The notes beneath the pieces were generated by a model, which was not told the origin of the DNA, made no database searches, and was given only the letters and a program-made list of their open reading frames with translations. A stretch of 64,000 bases of DNA from a virus: positions 1 to 64,000 of IMG/VR virus record IMGVR_UViG_3300044825_001015; one strand, 5' to 3'. Numbering within the stretch: position 1 is the stretch's first letter; the number at the start of each line of letters is the position of its first letter. Shown one piece after another: positions 3,663-31,432 of this stretch. Both the position numbers and the translations under genes were made by a program.

Positions 3663-5594
3663 ATGTCACAAGGTATTGATAACCACTATGAAAACTTTAT
3701 TGCTTTAAGCCGTTATGCTAGATGGCTTTCTGATGAAAATCGCCGCGAAACTTGGGGTGAAACTGTAGATAGATATTTCACTTTTATGCGTATGCATCTA
3801 AGAGAAGAGTGCGGTTACGAGCCTTCTGAAGATCTTATTTCAGAGTTAAGAGAGGCTGTTTTCAATAGAAATGTCATGCCTTCAATGCGAGCAATCATGA
3901 CTTCTGGCCCAGCACTAGAGAGGGACAATGTGGCAGGATATAACTGCTCATTCCTACCAGTAGATAGCCTTAGATCCTTTGACGAGGCAATGTACATTCT
4001 TATGTGCGGTACTGGTGTTGGATTCTCTGTAGAGAGTGTATATGTCGATAAACTTCCTACTATTAACGAACATTTTGAGCCTACAAATACCACTATTGTC
4101 GTAGAAGACTCTAAGGCTGGATGGGCTAAGGCATTAAGAGAACTGCTCGCATTATTGTGGCAAGGACAGGTTCCAACATGGGACGTTTCTAAGGTTAGGC
4201 CAGCAGGGGCAAGACTAAAGACTTTTGGGGGTCGTGCATCTGGTCCAGAGCCACTAGTTCAGTTGTTCGATTTTTGCGTAAACATAATTAAGGGTGCAGC
4301 AGGAAGAAAATTAAGACCTTTAGAGGCACATGATATTATGTGTAAGATTGGAGAAGTAGTTGTAGTTGGAGGCGTTCGTCGTTCTGCTATGATTTCACTT
4401 TCTGATCTTAATGATCATGATATGGCCCGTGCAAAGCACGGTGCATGGTGGGAGTATAACTCACAACGGGCACTATCAAATAACTCTGTTGCATACTCAG
4501 GTCGTCCAAGCATGTCTGATTTTATGTCAGAGTGGAAGAACCTTTACGAAAGCAAGTCTGGCGAGCGCGGAATTTATAATGTAGGTGCTGCTCAGGGTCA
4601 GGCCGCTAAGTATGGACGCAGAGATCCAGAAATAAGATACGGAACAAATCCATGCTCTGAAATCATTCTCCGACCATATCAATTCTGTAATCTATCAGAG
4701 GTAGTTGTTAGGCCAAACGATACAGAAAAGACATTAATGCGTAAGGTAGAACTTGCAACGATCCTTGGAACTTGGCAGTCAACTCTTACTAATTTCAAGT
4801 ATTTAAGAAAGATTTGGAAGGATAACACAGAAGAAGAAAGACTTCTTGGAGTTTCCATAACTGGGCAATTTGGAAATAAGTTAATGTCTGGTCAAGAAGG
4901 ATTAGTCAAACTTAGTAATGTGTTAAATAACTTGAGACTACATGCTGTAAAGGTTAATGAAGAAGAGGCCAAGGTTCTTGGAATTAATCCTTCCGCAGCC
5001 ATTACATGTGTTAAGCCTTCTGGAACAGTTTCTCAGTTAACAGGTGTTTCTTCTGGTATGCATCCATGGCATAACGATTACTACATTCGTACTGTCCGTG
5101 GAGACAAGAAAGATCCTCTGACTAACTTCCTCGTCGATGCTGGAATACCAGCAGAAGATGATGTTATGAAGCCAAATGACACTACTGTATTCTCATTCCC
5201 AATTAAGGCTCCAGATAATGCTGTATTAAGAAATGATTTATCAGCAGTAGAGCATCTAGATATTTGGCTAACTTATCAGCGTGCATGGTGCGAGCATAAG
5301 CCATCAATTACTGTTTCTGTTAAAGAAGATGAGTGGATGGACGTTGGGGCGTGGGTCTGGAAAAATTTTGATGAAGTTTCTGGTATTTCATTCTTGCCAT
5401 ACTCAGATCATACCTACAAGCAGGCACCATATCAAGATACTACTAAGGAAGAGTACGAAGAACTTCTTGCTAAGATGCCAAAAGATATTCGTTGGTCTGA
5501 CATGGTATTCTATGAAACAGAGGATGGTACTAAAGGATCTCAGGAACTTGCTTGTAGTGCAGATACTGGGTGTGAAATTGTTGACATAGGATAA
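3663..5594 (+). CDS. nrdJ: Class II (adenosylcobalamin-dependent) ribonucleoside-triphosphate reductase, monomeric type
   Basis: 643 aa from ATG 3663 (SD AGGGAG 6 nt upstream); a TTG 30 nt further up is unlikely. Class II reductases make dNTPs through a thiyl radical generated with adenosylcobalamin, independent of oxygen. Compared with the Lactobacillus leichmannii enzyme I see the thiyl cysteine C331 in GTNPCSEI with E333, and the reducing pair C95 (GYNCSF) and C342 (11 residues after C331, the same spacing as in that enzyme). A C-terminal pair C-x5-C (ACSADTGCEI) can relay electrons. No separate activating subunit is needed. The host must supply B12 coenzyme. It pairs functionally with thyX. 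Confidence 0.93.
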   Translation: MSQGIDNHYENFIALSRYARWLSDENRRETWGETVDRYFTFMRMHLREECGYEPSEDLISELREAVFNRNVMPSMRAIMTSGPALERDNVAGYNCSFLPVDSLRSFDEAMYILMCGTGVGFSVESVYVDKLPTINEHFEPTNTTIVVEDSKAGWAKALRELLALLWQGQVPTWDVSKVRPAGARLKTFGGRASGPEPLVQLFDFCVNIIKGAAGRKLRPLEAHDIMCKIGEVVVVGGVRRSAMISLSDLNDHDMARAKHGAWWEYNSQRALSNNSVAYSGRPSMSDFMSEWKNLYESKSGERGIYNVGAAQGQAAKYGRRDPEIRYGTNPCSEIILRPYQFCNLSEVVVRPNDTEKTLMRKVELATILGTWQSTLTNFKYLRKIWKDNTEEERLLGVSITGQFGNKLMSGQEGLVKLSNVLNNLRLHAVKVNEEEAKVLGINPSAAITCVKPSGTVSQLTGVSSGMHPWHNDYYIRTVRGDKKDPLTNFLVDAGIPAEDDVMKPNDTTVFSFPIKAPDNAVLRNDLSAVEHLDIWLTYQRAWCEHKPSITVSVKEDEWMDVGAWVWKNFDEVSGISFLPYSDHTYKQAPYQDTTKEEYEELLAKMPKDIRWSDMVFYETEDGTKGSQELACSADTGCEIVDIG

Positions 5595-5595
5595 A

Positions 5596-6222
5596 ATGTA
5601 TAAAGATTTAAAAATCATAGAAAATTTTATTGATTTAGAAAGATGTAGATCATTATCCAATGAACTGAGAAAGCAAATTATTTATAATAGCAATACTAAT
5701 TCTAAATCTTTATTTCCTGGAAATGGATTCTATCTTATAGATAAAGATTTGAAAGAATTAATGCCATTAACTAAAGATTCTATGATTAGTGTTGGCTACC
5801 TTAAATATGGAATATCAAAAGAAATAAATGATTTTAACGAAAATATTTTTAACTGTATAAAAGATATTCAAAAAGAGGTAGAATTATTTTTTAATAAAAA
5901 TATTAGTGTGGTCCACGGTGGATATCATTTAATGTGTCCAGGATCAAATAATAATATACATAGAGATGAATATTTGCCATCTAAAGATGGTGCTATGAAT
6001 TATGTAGTTTCTCACTCAGCACTTTTATATTTAAATTCTAACGAAGAAGATTATTCTGGAGGAGAGATTGTTTTTCCAGAAAAAAGCATTAGTTTAAAAA
6101 CCAAAGCAGGAACTTTAATAATTTTTACTGCACAGGAGCCACATGGCGTTACAGAAGTTCTTACTGGTTTGAGAGATGTAATAATATTGTTTTTCCTAAC
6201 TGTAGATGATATACTTAATTAG
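5596..6222 (+). CDS. 2-oxoglutarate/Fe(II)-dependent oxygenase
   Basis: 208 aa, prolyl-4-hydroxylase-like double-stranded beta-helix. The iron triad is visible as H122-x-D124 (IHRDEY) and H183 (EPHGV), with R193 ten residues later to hold 2-oxoglutarate. GGEIVFPEKSISLKTKAGTL is the usual strand pattern between the iron ligands. The ATG follows the reductase stop by 1 nt, with GGAT as a weak SD. This copy is more A+T-rich and diverged than the three in the fibre locus and is the only one with Arg at the cosubstrate position. The substrate is unknown: protein side chain, nucleotide or DNA base. Confidence 0.88.
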   Translation: MYKDLKIIENFIDLERCRSLSNELRKQIIYNSNTNSKSLFPGNGFYLIDKDLKELMPLTKDSMISVGYLKYGISKEINDFNENIFNCIKDIQKEVELFFNKNISVVHGGYHLMCPGSNNNIHRDEYLPSKDGAMNYVVSHSALLYLNSNEEDYSGGEIVFPEKSISLKTKAGTLIIFTAQEPHGVTEVLTGLRDVIILFFLTVDDILN

Positions 6223-21496: not shown

Positions 21497-22225
21497 ATGA
21501 ATGAGTGGCTTGATAAGTCTCGTGAAGAGACTGATACTAGGCGTATGCCAGATAAATATTTAGACGAAATTATTGTATCCAACCCAGCATTAGGAATTAA
21601 TGTATATAGAAATGCTATACCTAAAGATTCATGTAAAAAAACTATATCAACTTTAGAAAAGGTTCTTAACTCTACTGGTCCTTATAGTTGGCAGCCAGCA
21701 AATGTTACTGAATCTGATGACCCGTTATTAGAGGCAAGATACTGTGTTGATTTTAAAATTGGTCAAAAAAATCTAGGTGAAGTAAATCAATATAATAAAA
21801 AATTGTATGAATTACATGAAGACATATTCCAGTATGTCTATAAGTGTTCTGTAGATTATGGAAGATACTGGGGTGTCGGACTGAACTACTTTGAGGTATT
21901 TAATTTTGTTAGATATGAAAGTCCTGGTCAACACTTTAATATTCATGCAGATCATGGACCAGCATATGTAACAACAATATCTGCAGTAGCATACTTAAAT
22001 GATGACTATGAAGGTGGAGAGTTATATTTCCCTAGATTTAATTTAACAATAAAGCCAGAGGCTGGAGATATAGTATTTTTCCCATCTACATTTATTTATG
22101 AGCATTCATCTGAGCCAATGATATCTGGAACTAAATATTCAGTAGTTATAATGACTGATTATAATTCTAGAGGTGGTCTTAGGTATTACCCATACAGACA
22201 AAATGAAGAAACTTTAATTTATTAG
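21497..22225 (+). CDS. 2-oxoglutarate/Fe(II) oxygenase, fibre-locus copy 2
   Basis: 242 aa. Iron ligands H150-x-D152 (FNIHADHG) and H203 (YEHSSEP), cosubstrate lysine K213 ten residues later, and the DDYEGGELYFPRFNLTIKPEAGD strand pair typical of prolyl-4-hydroxylase-type enzymes. Weak SD (AAAGAAAG). The C-terminal part adds a Tyr/Arg-rich tail (GGLRYYPYRQNEE). Closely related to the next gene, so a tandem duplication is likely. Confidence 0.88.
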   Translation: MNEWLDKSREETDTRRMPDKYLDEIIVSNPALGINVYRNAIPKDSCKKTISTLEKVLNSTGPYSWQPANVTESDDPLLEARYCVDFKIGQKNLGEVNQYNKKLYELHEDIFQYVYKCSVDYGRYWGVGLNYFEVFNFVRYESPGQHFNIHADHGPAYVTTISAVAYLNDDYEGGELYFPRFNLTIKPEAGDIVFFPSTFIYEHSSEPMISGTKYSVVIMTDYNSRGGLRYYPYRQNEETLIY

Positions 22226-22232
22226 GATTTAT

Positions 22233-22931
22233 ATGGAAGATATAAAAGATATAGAAAATAATATTAAAAATTTTTATTCTTATTCTGGACAAACATGGTC
22301 TTCATATGAAGAGGTTGCAAATGGTATATATGTTTTCCATGACTTAATCCCTAGTGTATCGGTAAAAATGCTAGAAGATGTTATGTCTGATACCTATAAT
22401 CCATATTCTTATTCCAAGGCTATGGTGGGGTATCAAATGCATATACCAGAGTACAGAGATTGCTTGGACTTTAAATATAAAAAAACAGATATTGAAAATG
22501 ACAATAGTATATCTGGAATGATGCTTAAGAAACTATGGGATATGATTTATAACAAATCATTGCCTGCCGTTAAAAAATATTGTGAAGATTTTAATATAGG
22601 AGAACTTAGGTACTGGGAGTCTATGAATTTTGTTAAGTATGGCCCTGGTCAACATTTTCAGGAGCATCATGACCATGGTTTTTCTTATAATTGTGTAGTT
22701 TCTTTAGTAGGATATCCAAATGATGATTATGAGGGTGGAGAGATATATTTTAGAAGGCAGGGTTTAGAAATAAAGCCAAAAGCAGGGGACCTGTTTGTGT
22801 TTCCATCAAATTTCATGTATCCACATAGAGCAATGCCAGTAAAAAGCGGTAATAAGTACTCTATAGTCACGATGCTTGATTACTCAGATAAGTTTCACAA
22901 GCCAGAATTTTATCAGGAAACCAATTCATGA
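22233..22931 (+). CDS. 2-oxoglutarate/Fe(II) oxygenase, fibre-locus copy 3
   Basis: 232 aa, 7 nt after copy 2, SD AGGA. Iron ligands H145-x-D147 (QEHHDHG) and H198 (MYPHRAMPV), K208 ten residues later, strand pair DDYEGGEIYFRRQGLEIKPKAGD. Shares with copy 2 the region before the triad (RYW...NFV-Y-PGQHF). ATGA overlap with the next gene. All catalytic residues are intact, so activity is expected; substrate unknown. Confidence 0.88.
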   Translation: MEDIKDIENNIKNFYSYSGQTWSSYEEVANGIYVFHDLIPSVSVKMLEDVMSDTYNPYSYSKAMVGYQMHIPEYRDCLDFKYKKTDIENDNSISGMMLKKLWDMIYNKSLPAVKKYCEDFNIGELRYWESMNFVKYGPGQHFQEHHDHGFSYNCVVSLVGYPNDDYEGGEIYFRRQGLEIKPKAGDLFVFPSNFMYPHRAMPVKSGNKYSIVTMLDYSDKFHKPEFYQETNS

Positions 22932-26885: not shown

Positions 26886-27233
26886 ATGAAAAAGAAAAAT
26901 AATCATAGAGTAACTATGGTCGATGAAAGCGACTATGGGTTATATTTATGGCAGACTATAGATGGTAAATTAGTCTGTGATGAAGATGCAAACTATCTAA
27001 ACATACCATCAAAAAAGGGCGACAAGGAAAAAATAAAACTTCTAGAATTAGCCGCAAAAGATTGCGGGATAATTGGAGGTCAGCCAGTATTTTTCTCTGG
27101 GAATAGAAGAGTTACTGATGAAGAATATGAATATCAAAAGCAGAGAATGGAATGGGGTCTGGTCCCAGACGAACTTGACTACGGAGCAGCACGCGAAGAA
27201 TTAATGAATTATAAAAAGGCTAAGGGTCTATAA
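26886..27233 (+). CDS. Small protein upstream of portal
   Basis: 115 aa, basic N-terminus (MKKKNNHRV), then DYGLYLWQTIDGKLVCDEDANYLNIPS and a charged helical C-terminus. The TAA overlaps the portal ATG (TAATG). In many phages the large terminase stands here; this protein is far too small and has no Walker motif. Co-expression with portal suggests a head function. No family recognised. Confidence 0.6.
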   Translation: MKKKNNHRVTMVDESDYGLYLWQTIDGKLVCDEDANYLNIPSKKGDKEKIKLLELAAKDCGIIGGQPVFFSGNRRVTDEEYEYQKQRMEWGLVPDELDYGAAREELMNYKKAKGL

Positions 27234-28810
27234 TGTCATCTGAATATGTAGAAGATACTGTATCTGAAGAAATTTCTATAGTTTCATCTAACGACTTTTT
27301 CAAAAATTCATCATCAGACTACAGGGATGTTTTCTTAGAGCAGGGTGACATATTAAATAAATACAATGGGCTATCTTCAAATTTTAAAAGAAGAAATACT
27401 AGGCAACTACAAAAATATCATCAGGGCGTAGACGGAGTAAAGTCTAAGAAGATTGAAGATCCAGATGTAACTGGATACGTCATGTTTGAGGTAGTTGAAC
27501 CTCCATATAATATGGATTATCTTTCTAAGGTGTATGAAGTTTCTTCACCCCACCATGCCGCAGTAGACGCAAAAGTGTCTAATACAGTAGGACTAGGATA
27601 CGATTTTGTAGAAAGTTCTGCAACAAAAGAAAAAATAGAAGAAGTTGATGACTCAGACGTAGAAAGATTAAGTTTTCTACGCAGAAAGATAGCAAGATCT
27701 AAGGCAGCACTATTAGAAAAGATAGATTCTTTAAATGAAGATGAATCATTTACAGAAACTATGAAAAAGATTGATACCGACTATGAGGCTACTGGAAATG
27801 CTTATATGGAAATAGGCAGAAAAGTAGATGGAACAATAGGCTACCTAGGACACATACCTTCTGCAAATATGAGAGTAAGAAGAAATCGTGACGGTTTCGT
27901 TCAAATAGTTAACAATAAAATTGTTTACTTCAGAAACTTTGGGGATACTAATACAAAGAATCCAATTGGAGATGATCCAAGACCTAATGAAGTAATACAT
28001 TTTAAAAAGTATACTCCAACCAATAATTACTATGGAGTTCCAGACATTATTCCAGCCCTCCCAGCATTAGCAGGAGATGAGTTCGCATCTAAGTTCAATC
28101 TTGATTACTTTGAGAACAAGGCTGTTCCAAGATATATTATCGTGGTAAAAGGCGCTAAACTGTCTGATGATTCACAAAGAAAACTTTTAGAGTTTTTCCA
28201 AACTGGGCTTAAAGGAAAGAATCATAGGTCTTTATACATACCTATGCCAGCCGATGACGGACAAACAAAAGTGTCATTTGAGATGAATCCAGTAGAGGCT
28301 GGAATACAAGATTCTTCATTTAGAAATTATAGAGTGGAAAACCGTGATGAGATACTAATGGCTCATAGAGTTCCTGTAACTAAGGTAAGCATGGCTAACG
28401 GTGTATCTTTGGCGGCTGCTAGAGATGCTGATAAAAACTTTAGAGAACAGGTTACTAAGCCAACCCAAGACTACTTCCAAAAGAAGATAAATAAGATAAT
28501 TCGTGAATTTACAGATATGTTTTATCTAAAGTTCAATGAATTAACTCTTACAGATGAAGATACCCAGTCAAAGATCGATGAAAGATATCTTAGAATGCAA
28601 GTTCTGGTACCAAATGAAGTTAGGGCTAGAAATGGACTGCCAGCACTTGACGGAGGAGACTCCCCCATTGTTCTTAATGCACAGGCAAGAGCAGAGCAAA
28701 ATGCTCAGGCAACTAGAAATAGGCAAAGAGATCAAGAAAGACAAAACAACCAGCCTGATGTTAGTGGAGAAGCAAGAAATCCACAGGGCGAGGGAAGAAC
28801 TGTGCAATAA
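27233..28810 (+). CDS. Portal protein
   Basis: 525 aa. The portal is the dodecameric ring at one capsid vertex through which DNA enters and leaves. Phage portal (SPP1/PBSX-type) features: HHAAVDAKVSNTVGLGYDF, a central beta/loop part GIGRKVDGTIGYLGHIP-like, RPNEVIHFKKYTPTNNYYGV (about 250-270), LPALAGDEFASKFNLDYFENKAVPRYII, and MAHRVPVTKVS. The last 60 residues are Gln/Asn/Arg-rich and probably disordered. It is followed by the prohead protease, as usual. Confidence 0.9.
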   Translation: MSSEYVEDTVSEEISIVSSNDFFKNSSSDYRDVFLEQGDILNKYNGLSSNFKRRNTRQLQKYHQGVDGVKSKKIEDPDVTGYVMFEVVEPPYNMDYLSKVYEVSSPHHAAVDAKVSNTVGLGYDFVESSATKEKIEEVDDSDVERLSFLRRKIARSKAALLEKIDSLNEDESFTETMKKIDTDYEATGNAYMEIGRKVDGTIGYLGHIPSANMRVRRNRDGFVQIVNNKIVYFRNFGDTNTKNPIGDDPRPNEVIHFKKYTPTNNYYGVPDIIPALPALAGDEFASKFNLDYFENKAVPRYIIVVKGAKLSDDSQRKLLEFFQTGLKGKNHRSLYIPMPADDGQTKVSFEMNPVEAGIQDSSFRNYRVENRDEILMAHRVPVTKVSMANGVSLAAARDADKNFREQVTKPTQDYFQKKINKIIREFTDMFYLKFNELTLTDEDTQSKIDERYLRMQVLVPNEVRARNGLPALDGGDSPIVLNAQARAEQNAQATRNRQRDQERQNNQPDVSGEARNPQGEGRTVQ

Positions 28811-28843
28811 CTGTGGAAAGAATTTTGTATTAACTTACTAACT

Positions 28844-28852
28844 TGATAGAAT
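28844..28852 (+). promoter_or_regulatory. Extended -10 promoter before the protease gene
   Basis: TGA-TAGAAT with a 9-nt gap to ATG 28862, which predicts a leader of only 2-3 nt. No SD is present. Confidence 0.45.
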
Positions 28853-28861
28853 TTATTTGAC

Positions 28862-30406
28862 ATGGAAATAATTAAGTCTTATTGGCATAGTGATGGCGAC
28901 AGAATTAACTTGTCGGTTCCATTCTTTAAGGTGGATGAAGAGAGAAGAATTGTCTCTGGATTCGCCACTTTAGACAATGTAGATAGACATAGAGATATTG
29001 TAGATACTGACGCATCAATAAAAGCATTTGAGTCCTTTAGAGGCAATTTAAGGGAAATGCATCAGCCAATAGCAGTAGGAAAAGTTACGAATTTCCGCGA
29101 GGAACAGTTCTTTGACAAAGAAACTGGACAAACATATCGTGGAGTATTTGTAGATACTTATGTTTCTAAGGGTGCCCAAGATACCTGGGAAAAGGTTCTT
29201 GATGGTACCCTTTCTGGATTCTCCATAGGTGGAAATATTACTAAGGTAGATCAGGTTCAAAAGGGTGACGACATAGTTCGCGTCATTAAAGAATATGAAT
29301 TAGTAGAACTTTCACTAGTAGATAGTCCAGCAAACCAACTTGCTAATATCTTTGCCATACAGAAGTCAGATGGAGTTAATAGTATTACTGGAATTGCTGT
29401 AGATGTAACAATGGAGAATGTTTTCTGGTGCGAAACAGATCAAATTGCTATTTCTAAAGATAGTGACTCCTCACAATGTTTAGTATGTGAAAAAGAAATG
29501 CAAAACATTGGATGGGTAGAGTCTAATGACGTTTCAAAGAACGAAGAAATAGGCAAGGCAGTTGATCGTCATATTCTTAAGGCTGCGGCAGGCACGCTAA
29601 GAGTAGGAGACTTTGTTTCCTGGAATTCTAGTGGAGGCACAGCAAGAGGCAAAATAGAGCGAATCGTATCATCTGGATCTATAGACGTTCCTGGTTCTGA
29701 TTTCACTATTAATGCAGAAGAGGATAACCCAGCAGTTCTTATCAGAGTATACAGAGAAAGTGAGTCTGGGTGGGAGCCAACAGATACAAGAGTTGGTCAC
29801 AAGATGAGTACTCTGAGAAAGATAGATTCATTGCCTGAAGCCAACAAAGTAGCAAAACAGGCAGACAATGAAACCATTAATGAAGGAGGTGCAGTAGAAA
29901 TGGAAATTGAAAAGAGTGAAGAAATCGAAGTTACTGAAGAACTATCAGAAGAGGTAGAAAAGGCAGCAGTTGTTGCTGAAGAGGCCACAGAAGAAGTTGA
30001 GGCTGTAACAGAAGAGGTTTCTGAAGAAGAGGTAGAAGAAGTTGAAAAGGCTGCTGCCATCTCTGAGGTTGAGGTTGAAGAGCCAGATTTTGTTAAAATG
30101 TTGGACGACCTCAAGACATTCTTTGGCGATAATCTAACAAAGAGCGCTGAAGAGACAAAGACCACAGTAGATGAACTAAGCAAGAGCCTAGATGCTCGCA
30201 TTACAGAATTGGCTGAGAGACATGATGAACTCAGCAAGGCAGTTAAAGATATAAAAAGCGCCATTGACACAATCGAAAAAAGAGTCGATATGGTCGAAGG
30301 TGAAACTGCTGTTAAGAAGTCCGGCGATCTTGATGGGTCAAAGGAAGAAACAACAATAAGAAAAGGTATCTGGAGCGGATCATTCCTCGGTATCCGTGAT
30401 CTATGA
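28862..30406 (+). CDS. Prohead protease fused to a Tudor-like domain and scaffold
   Basis: 514 aa with three parts. Residues 1-170: XkdF/S78-like prohead protease, with H67 (LREMHQP) and S118/S121 (GTLSGFSIGG) as candidate catalytic residues, then YELVELSLVDSPAN. Residues 185-220 hold C190, C206 and C209, a possible metal knuckle. Residues 245-320 (LRVGDFVSWNSSGGTARGKI to VGHKMSTLRKI) match the DUF2945/HVA1 Tudor-like domain. Residues 347-514 are acidic and coiled coil, as in scaffolds. The protease cleaves scaffold and capsid protein during head maturation. An internal start likely produces the scaffold separately. Confidence 0.85.
   Translation: MEIIKSYWHSDGDRINLSVPFFKVDEERRIVSGFATLDNVDRHRDIVDTDASIKAFESFRGNLREMHQPIAVGKVTNFREEQFFDKETGQTYRGVFVDTYVSKGAQDTWEKVLDGTLSGFSIGGNITKVDQVQKGDDIVRVIKEYELVELSLVDSPANQLANIFAIQKSDGVNSITGIAVDVTMENVFWCETDQIAISKDSDSSQCLVCEKEMQNIGWVESNDVSKNEEIGKAVDRHILKAAAGTLRVGDFVSWNSSGGTARGKIERIVSSGSIDVPGSDFTINAEEDNPAVLIRVYRESESGWEPTDTRVGHKMSTLRKIDSLPEANKVAKQADNETINEGGAVEMEIEKSEEIEVTEELSEEVEKAAVVAEEATEEVEAVTEEVSEEEVEEVEKAAAISEVEVEEPDFVKMLDDLKTFFGDNLTKSAEETKTTVDELSKSLDARITELAERHDELSKAVKDIKSAIDTIEKRVDMVEGETAVKKSGDLDGSKEETTIRKGIWSGSFLGIRDL
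29900..30406 (+). CDS. Nested scaffold protein from an internal start
   Basis: 168 aa in the same frame as the protease. The internal ATG at 29900 (codon 347) is preceded by AAGGAGGTG at 29883-29891, one of the strongest SDs in the window, with 8-nt spacing; a strong SD there has no other purpose. The product is very acidic (EVTEELSEEVEKAA, EEVEAVTEEVSEEE) followed by a heptad-like coiled coil (VDELSKSLDARITELAERHD). This matches the known lambda design in which Nu3 scaffold starts inside protease gene C. Not yet shown for this phage. Confidence 0.75.
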   Translation: MEIEKSEEIEVTEELSEEVEKAAVVAEEATEEVEAVTEEVSEEEVEEVEKAAAISEVEVEEPDFVKMLDDLKTFFGDNLTKSAEETKTTVDELSKSLDARITELAERHDELSKAVKDIKSAIDTIEKRVDMVEGETAVKKSGDLDGSKEETTIRKGIWSGSFLGIRDL

Positions 30407-30410
30407 TATT

Positions 30411-30430
30411 TATAATCCGAAAGGTAGGTG
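30411..30430 (+). promoter_or_regulatory. Capsid gene promoter candidate and shared 16-nt leader
   Basis: TATAAT at 30411-30416 lies just after the protease stop. It overlaps ATCCGAAAGGTAGGTG (30415-30430), which is identical to 34597-34612 upstream of the tail tube gene. GTAGGTG is the SD, 9 nt before ATG 30440. Identical leaders before the two most abundant virion proteins suggest a translation enhancer. Confidence 0.6.
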
Positions 30431-30439
30431 AAAAGCAAG

Positions 30440-31432
30440 ATGAGTAACGAACTTTTACAAAAAGTTATCGACACAACAACAGTCGGTGCAGACAATGGTG
30501 GTCTTTTGAAGCCAGAGCAATCTAACCGCTTCATTGACTACATGTTTGATGCAACTATTTTGACACGCGCTGCTCGCACAATTCGTATGCGTGCAGACAC
30601 AACTGAGATCGATAAGGTTGGTGTTGGCGAGCGTCTGATGGTCTTGGCTACAGAAGGTAGCGCAGCAGGACAAACAGACCGTGGAGCAACATTCACCAAG
30701 GTTTCACTCACAACAAAGAAGTTGCGTCTTGACTGGGAACTTTCAAGCGAGTCTCTTGAAGATAATATCGAAGGAGCCGACCTTGAAGACCATATTGCAC
30801 GCCTTATGGCAACACAGGCAGGCAATGACGTTGAAGATTTAGCAATCAATGGTGACACAGCACTTTCATCCAACAATCTCCTCAAGGCATTTAATGGATT
30901 CCGCAAGTTAGCCCTTAATGGAGGAAATGTAGTTGATGCTGGTGGTGCAACAATCACCAAGGCAGTCTTCAACAACGCACTAAAGAATATGCCAAGAAAA
31001 TACAAGCAACGTCGTAACCAGTTGCGCTTCTTCACCGGAAGCAACTTGGTTCAAGACTACTTGTACAACCTCACAACAGTTGGATCTACTCCAGAGGATA
31101 TCGCTTCAAGCATCCTCCGTGGTAACCCAGCCGCACCAGATGGTGCCCCAGGTGGCGTAATCCCATTTGCGTTTGGAATTCCAGTTGTCGAAGTTCCACT
31201 AATTGACGAGACTCGCGCAGGCGATTACTCAGGCGCTACAGGCCAACACGGTGAAGTTCATTTGACATTCCCAAATAACTTCATCATCGGCATCAAGCGT
31301 GACGTAACCGTTTACCGTGAGTTCAAGCCAAAGAAGGATACAATCGAATACACACTCTTCATTCGTGTTGGTGTTGCAGTCGAGAACCTTGATTCTTTCG
31401 TAGTCGTTAAGAATGTTAAGGTAGCATCCTGA
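30440..31432 (+). CDS. Major capsid protein, HK97 fold
   Basis: 330 aa from ATG 30440; a GTG 12 nt earlier is part of the SD. Typical HK97-type arrangement: N-terminal arm, TILTRAARTIRM, LTTKKLRLDWELSSESLEDN (spine helix region), a GNDVEDLAINGD motif, FFTGSNLVQDYLYNL, GIPVVEVPLIDE and FPNNFIIGIKRDVTVYREFKPKKDTIEYTLFIRVGVAV near the end. Forms the icosahedral shell. Codon use is unlike its neighbours: 18 of 19 arginines are CGT/CGC, one is AGA. Terminator follows. Confidence 0.92.
   Translation: MSNELLQKVIDTTTVGADNGGLLKPEQSNRFIDYMFDATILTRAARTIRMRADTTEIDKVGVGERLMVLATEGSAAGQTDRGATFTKVSLTTKKLRLDWELSSESLEDNIEGADLEDHIARLMATQAGNDVEDLAINGDTALSSNNLLKAFNGFRKLALNGGNVVDAGGATITKAVFNNALKNMPRKYKQRRNQLRFFTGSNLVQDYLYNLTTVGSTPEDIASSILRGNPAAPDGAPGGVIPFAFGIPVVEVPLIDETRAGDYSGATGQHGEVHLTFPNNFIIGIKRDVTVYREFKPKKDTIEYTLFIRVGVAVENLDSFVVVKNVKVAS

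Follow-up and report, generated by a model that had tools for sequence, protein, structure and literature searches.

Organization of the head gene locus

The window analyzed here, a stretch of 64,000 nucleotides (positions 1 to 64,000) of the 104,844-base virus record IMGVR_UViG_3300044825_001015, carries on one strand the genes for a portal protein, a fusion of a protease with a candidate scaffold, and a major capsid protein, one after the other (Table 1). The front of the fusion is assigned to the S78 proteases on two grounds: the PF04586 profile scores 31.6 bits against a curated cut-off of 21, and HK97 gp4 aligns with the domain in hhalign (probability 91, E 9.4e-7). H67, S121, and E149, putative catalytic residues, are invariant in an alignment of 51 sequences. 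No S49 peptidase domain was found in this ORF by Pfam. A PDB sequence search with the protease alignment returned 13 matches that resemble coiled-coil noise, and Foldseek gave no match to the model of the whole protease-scaffold protein at E <= 0.001.

Table 1. Features of the protease-scaffold locus and its neighbors (positions in the window)
Feature	Position	Strand	Basis and remarks
Portal protein gene, directly upstream of the protease ORF	27233..28810	+	PF04860 E 1.1e-30; phrog_12
-35-like TTGTAT	28825..28830	+	16 nt before the -10-like box; comparative
-10-like TAGAAT	28847..28852	+	ends 9 nt before the protease ATG; comparative
Protease-scaffold fusion ORF, 514 aa	28862..30406	+	phrog_9427 E 2.8e-127
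S78-type protease core, ~residues 1-170	28862..29371	+	PF04586; HK97 gp4 profile match; invariant columns
Hva1_TUDOR domain, optional insert, residues 249-295	29606..29746	+	PF11160 E 1.6e-10
Internal Shine-Dalgarno sequence AAGGAGGTG	29883..29891	+	8-nt spacer to ATG 29900-29902
Nested candidate scaffold gene	29900..30406	+	168 aa, 18.7 kDa, pI 4.2; start ATG
Acidic N-terminal part of the scaffold, predicted disordered	29900..30088	+	AlphaFold; 28 D/E and 3 K/R in 63 residues
Single long helix, residues 410-483	30089..30310	+	AlphaFold
C-terminal tail, putative capsid-protein binding segment	30311..30403	+	invariant W504, G506, F508, L509 (51 sequences)
SD-like AGGTAGGTG of the capsid gene	30422..30430	+	-12.1 kcal/mol
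Major capsid protein gene, HK97 fold	30440..31432	+	phrog_1623, phrog_10; AlphaFold; Foldseek

The capsid protein comprises 330 residues, and its AlphaFold model (mean pLDDT 69) finds its best Foldseek match in the P4 procapsid (chain 7jw1_B, E 6e-15); a PDB sequence search with the capsid alignment gave no match. In the model, about 22 unordered N-terminal residues precede an ordered helix that begins at residue 25, so that the protein has no delta domain of its own, as expected of a system that relies on a scaffold.

Some relatives differ in the spacing of these genes. In six loci (L041, L048, L069, L080, L082, and L083), the portal and protease genes are separated by 454-476 nt, a gap that the window does not have and that is annotated in Streptomyces phages Bordeaux and Evy as a gene for a membrane or hypothetical protein.

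A probable internal start within the protease gene

The initial annotation proposed that a Shine-Dalgarno (SD) sequence with an 8-nt spacer precedes an in-frame ATG inside the protease gene, and this reading is borne out: the ATG is codon 347 of 514, in frame with the protease start, and the two forms end at a common stop codon. With the 16S tail as the anti-SD, the duplex at this site reaches -16.0 kcal/mol. Among the 466 internal in-frame NTG codons in the 52 window ORFs that encode 100 aa or more, it ranks first, followed by sites at -11.3 and -10.2. A count of the plain DNA pattern AGGAGG-N4-10-RTG shows only mild enrichment, with 11 matches in the window versus 6.1 +/- 2.4 in shuffles, so that a single site proves little by itself and conservation among relatives decides.

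The start was also said to lie exactly at the border between the Tudor-like domain and an acidic coiled coil, which is nearly right. The Pfam match to the Tudor domain ends at residue 295 and the model is ordered to about residue 331; Met347 does open the acidic run, but it lies 15 residues inside a linker that is predicted to be disordered from 332 to 407. What follows is indeed acidic, but "coiled coil" fits it less well than a division into an acidic disordered stretch (347-409), a long helix (410-483), and a conserved tail (484-514).

Conservation among relatives

We compared 83 genes, near copies among them: the best 80 of 598 from a scan of viral contigs, the window's own, and those of Bordeaux and Evy. 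Four (L018, L019, L042, and L051) were set aside as their contigs end before the border, leaving 79 spanning genes, every one of which has at the border an in-frame start (ATG in 53, GTG in 24, TTG in 2) preceded by an SD no weaker than -10 kcal/mol. Over all 83 genes, the median for the best internal site is -13.9 kcal/mol, and none of 982 other internal in-frame NTG codons in the relatives' protease genes reaches -10, the best being -9.3. The site is also present in all six further relatives, Streptomyces phages Faust, Coruscant, Mandalore, and Wakanda and Rhodococcus phages Weasels2 and Francesca, the last with a weaker SD (-11.9), and in four of four more sequences (a second copy of Weasels2, two virus contigs, and one contig of an Actinomycetota metagenome assembly). 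Two distant genes differ: in that of Brevundimonas phage Polewnik, the site was not found at a comparable place (best internal site, -6.5), and that of Roseobacter phage CRP-811 is without a comparable site, a -12.5 site at residue 130 preceding its Tudor domain. In a survey of S78 genes, 14 of 296 actinobacterial genomes had a match; strand and frame of the chosen ORF were checked only in L111, where the strong "internal" site, on reading, appears to mark the real beginning of the gene.

The part of the gene before the nested start ranges from 251 to 572 codons and the nested product from 159 to 210 aa in the 73 genes with complete 3' ends. The upstream part varies because inserts such as Hva1_TUDOR come and go; this domain is absent from many relatives, and the nested site is kept without it. 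One clade (L011, L013-L017, L020, and L075) has protease genes of about 718-749 aa with a long extra insert, the Tudor domain plus another segment, before the nested start. A gene of CRP-811 annotated as major capsid protein (L086, 2602-5052) opens with a Tudor domain 59% identical to the one described here.

Selection on the nucleotide sequence

The GGAGG core is written in two codon registers among the 79 spanning genes, as GGA-GGN (EGG, KGG) in 55 and as xxG-GAG-Gxx (KEV, EEV, KEE) in 24. On a tree of 41 protease domains, the register switched only once, and the start codon changed at least eight times, each time into another start codon. The 37 nonredundant sites among the 79 begin with Met, Val, or Leu, always written ATG (24), GTG (12), or TTG (1), a count made after choosing NTG sites, although no spanning gene is without one; elsewhere in the protease genes, 5.3% of all codons for Val are GTG and 10.7% of those for Leu are TTG. 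The use of two SD registers, of GTG for every Val, and of start codons alone in these exchanges indicates that selection acts on nucleotides.

A synonymous null, in which the protein was held fixed and codons were redrawn from each gene's own usage, gives the same picture. For 25 representatives of the 79 genes, chosen so that their nested products are less than 60% identical, the mean SD energy is -13.8 kcal/mol observed versus -9.0 expected (Fisher p 1.2e-14); the single tests range from p 0 to 0.18 and many are weak, the strength lying in their sum, which treats the representatives as independent. Ala occupies position 2 in 17 of the 37 nonredundant sites (p 2e-5), and among the relatives RNA around the nested start is less folded than elsewhere in the gene (-3.6 versus -7.7 kcal/mol per 50 nt); in the window alone, local folding is ordinary for its composition (z 0.46). 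Taken as sequence patterns, these results strongly support the view that the internal start is maintained throughout the phage group by nucleotide-level selection as a start signal, and internal initiation as first proposed gains the same strong support.

The nested product as a candidate scaffold

That the nested product is the scaffold, as the initial annotation had it, is supported by its predicted anatomy and by its position directly before the gene of a capsid protein that lacks a delta domain. An AlphaFold model built on a 51-row alignment (mean pLDDT 70) has a loose tail after the disordered linker and the helix; T482, A483, K486, and S487, around the start of the tail, are invariant in the 51 sequences, and in all 73 genes with complete 3' ends the product carries a net excess of acidic residues over its first 60 positions. 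The product is thus an extended acidic and helical protein with a conserved C-terminal segment, encoded beside the capsid gene, as scaffolds are. No Pfam or PHROG family model names the nested segment a scaffold.

A separate scaffold gene nearby was considered and rejected. The gap between the protease and capsid genes is 18-198 nt in the loci where both were found, which leaves no room for one of this size (misplaced capsid starts may account for the larger gaps). Eight other window genes that flank the head module, of which seven lie downstream of the capsid gene and one lies upstream of the portal gene, have no scaffold among their PHROG matches. Seven annotated records of the phage group that were opened list the protease and the capsid protein, mark no scaffold near them, and in no case mark the nested gene; the basis on which these heads assemble was thus left unmarked. 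From these sequence comparisons, the unmarked internal start very probably makes a separate scaffold protein for the virus head, and the nested gene would fill the scaffold gap with an exact start codon. In the open-access literature, we found no description of a nested arrangement for these phages; within a 2026 paper on Rhodococcus phages, a passage on Cluster CA names a scaffolding protein, and the passages seen on Cluster CB (Weasels2) name none (PMC13313380).

A promoter-like box at the protease start

The protease ATG has no SD of its own (-1.6 kcal/mol). Across 78 genes, three of them on contigs that end before the border, the median at the protease's own start is -1.45 kcal/mol, and the best internal site is stronger in all 78. 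What precedes this start instead is a -10-like box: TANNNT lies 5-10 nt upstream in 46 of 48 nonredundant upstream regions (drawn from 85), compared with a mean of 13.4 and a maximum of 24 in shuffles. Two regions were scored as misses, but by eye the box of L025 lies at 11 nt and that of L059 precedes an alternative upstream ATG. The same box precedes one of 40 capsid starts and none of the portal (38) or nested (42) starts. The full pattern, TTGNNN-N15-19-TANNNT, occurs before 32 of the 48 protease starts (shuffles: mean 1.4, largest 6) and before none of the capsid (0/40), portal (0/38), or nested (0/42) starts. A plain sigma-70 consensus scan of the window did not call the pair at 28825-28852, and the case for a promoter is therefore comparative.

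A -10 box that ends 6-9 nt ahead of the ATG would place the beginning of transcription about 0-3 nt upstream of the start codon and give a leaderless or nearly leaderless mRNA; in the window, the implied transcription start would fall near 28859, leaving a leader of about 3 nt. The protease start thus has the -10 element, placing the transcription start at or just before the start codon, that is expected of leaderless reading, and the long form is probably read from such an mRNA and the scaffold from an SD. For Cluster O mycobacteriophages, leaderless promoters have been predicted in which +1 coincides with the initial base of the start codon (PMC4351075). Four other gene starts in the window (2580, 24393, 52307, and 59798) combine a weak or absent SD with TANNNT 6-9 nt upstream and are further leaderless candidates.

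One gene, probably two proteins

We consider it highly probable that a single reading frame yields two proteins, a protease-scaffold fusion from the SD-less start at 28862 and a 168-aa scaffold from the AUG at 29900 and its SD. We posit that the promoter at 28825-28852 would produce one mRNA carrying both the protease-scaffold and the capsid genes, whose 5' end, at or a few bases before AUG 28862, would start the fusion. In vivo, ribosomes that bind the SD at 29883-29891 would initiate at AUG 29900 and yield scaffold without protease, probably in excess, and the SD at 30422 would start the capsid protein. An excess of scaffold over protease, which the initial annotation had envisaged, gains support from the protease start being without an SD. 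The fusion and the scaffold would share the helix and the C-terminal tail, which may bind the capsid protein; with these common tails, the two could co-assemble with the capsid protein and bring the protease inside, so that a procapsid would hold a few protease copies and many plain scaffolds. Removal of the scaffold by the protease would follow. We lean, by a narrow measure, toward the further proposal that two modes of initiation set the protease:scaffold ratio within a single gene: the fusion would start in leaderless fashion and the nested scaffold from an SD, with the promoter fused to the start codon of the long form. If this is true, a whole group of large phages from several actinobacterial genera would have conserved the two-mode start as a design.

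Other readings of the site deserve weighing. The full-length fusion could cut itself near the border and so supply most of the short scaffold, the internal start being minor, much as P2 gpO yields its short scaffold by cleaving itself. The fusion of protease and scaffold through a linker predicted to be disordered would suit such a route, and P2 O, whose best internal SD is -4.6, indicates that a phage can manage without a strong one; yet self-cleavage leaves unexplained the nucleotide-level conservation of a strong SD and a start codon in 79 of 79 genes, and we hold it improbable. Slightly more improbable again is that internal initiation is real and the short protein regulates the protease or is a minor component of the head. 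The scaffold function is a prediction and no scaffold family matches the product, which leaves space for such a role, but the adjoining capsid gene, the acidic-helical anatomy, the lack of a delta domain in the capsid protein, and the failure to find other scaffold candidates among the neighboring genes examined all speak against it.

Readings in which the SD-like stretch is not a start signal fare worse. SD-like stretches can slow ribosomes, and this one comes directly after folded domains, as would a pause site that aids the folding of the preceding domain; it could also stimulate frameshifting. Neither role accounts for a start codon that is always present at SD-like distance, is exchanged only for other start codons, and is often followed by Ala, and we judge them very unlikely. 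A frameshift site was rejected, since in all 8 representatives examined both alternative frames run into a stop no more than 28 codons past the site. Least credible, with next to no probability left to it, is a coding coincidence in which a conserved Glu-Gly-Gly linker happens to be written GAA GGA GGT: EGG or KGG is common at the site and makes a fairly strong SD by itself, as the null mean shows, but one clade spells the same GGAGG through KEV, EEV, or KEE in another register, and the observed energies exceed the protein-preserving expectation. None of the 79 spanning relatives has the SD-like codons without an NTG codon behind them, a pattern that would have favored coincidence. A linker motif at the amino-acid level was rejected on account of the two registers, and a chance SD on account of the conservation, the synonymous null, and the first rank among the NTG codons of the window.

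Relation to known systems

The proposed parallel with lambda C/Nu3 holds as a working principle: a protease gene with an in-frame internal scaffold start and a common C-terminus lies upstream of the decoration and capsid genes (C, 4418-5737, and nu3, 5132-5737, in NC_001416). It does not hold as homology, for lambda C is annotated as an S49 peptidase, whereas the protease here is of the S78 (HK97) type and matches HK97 gp4; by the tests made, the arrangement is like lambda's and not homologous to it. Scored in the same way with the E. coli anti-SD, the Nu3 site reaches -6.9 and ranks second in its gene, compared with -16 here, where the long form also has a promoter-like box at its start codon. 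Mu I/Z is similar in that Z is annotated with its "start site internal to gene I" and the major head gene T follows directly; the SD of Z, at -7.4, ranks first in gene I but is weaker than the one described here. With the annotated Nu3 start only second and that of Z first, both near -7, SD strength is an imperfect guide.

Herpesvirus UL26/UL26.5 likewise pairs a protease-scaffold fusion with an abundant nested scaffold of common C-terminus, but there the nested form is translated from a separate transcript, whereas here an SD within the gene would direct its synthesis. P2, too, encodes its scaffold, gpO, upstream of its capsid gene, N, and the P4 procapsid is the closest solved fold to the capsid protein of the window. 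HK97 shares with our locus a related protease (gp4) and the capsid fold; gp4, however, has 225 aa without a fused scaffold part, against 514 aa for the fusion. Neither P2 O nor HK97 gp4 has an internal SD stronger than -4.6 when scored with the E. coli anti-SD. Published work describes gpO as a scaffold with protease function and the HK97 scaffold as a delta domain of the capsid protein (PMC8508860).

The principle of an internal start was already known from lambda C/Nu3 and Mu I/Z, and the new element is the -10-like box at a protease start without an SD. The locus extends the lambda C/Nu3 solution to a group of phages whose protease belongs to another family, and it offers a natural case in which one gene is probably read by both leaderless and SD-led initiation, with cultured relatives in Streptomyces and Rhodococcus.

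Elsewhere in the window, two neighboring genes at 21497-22931 (242 and 232 aa) look alike and by eye resemble 2-oxoglutarate/iron dioxygenases.
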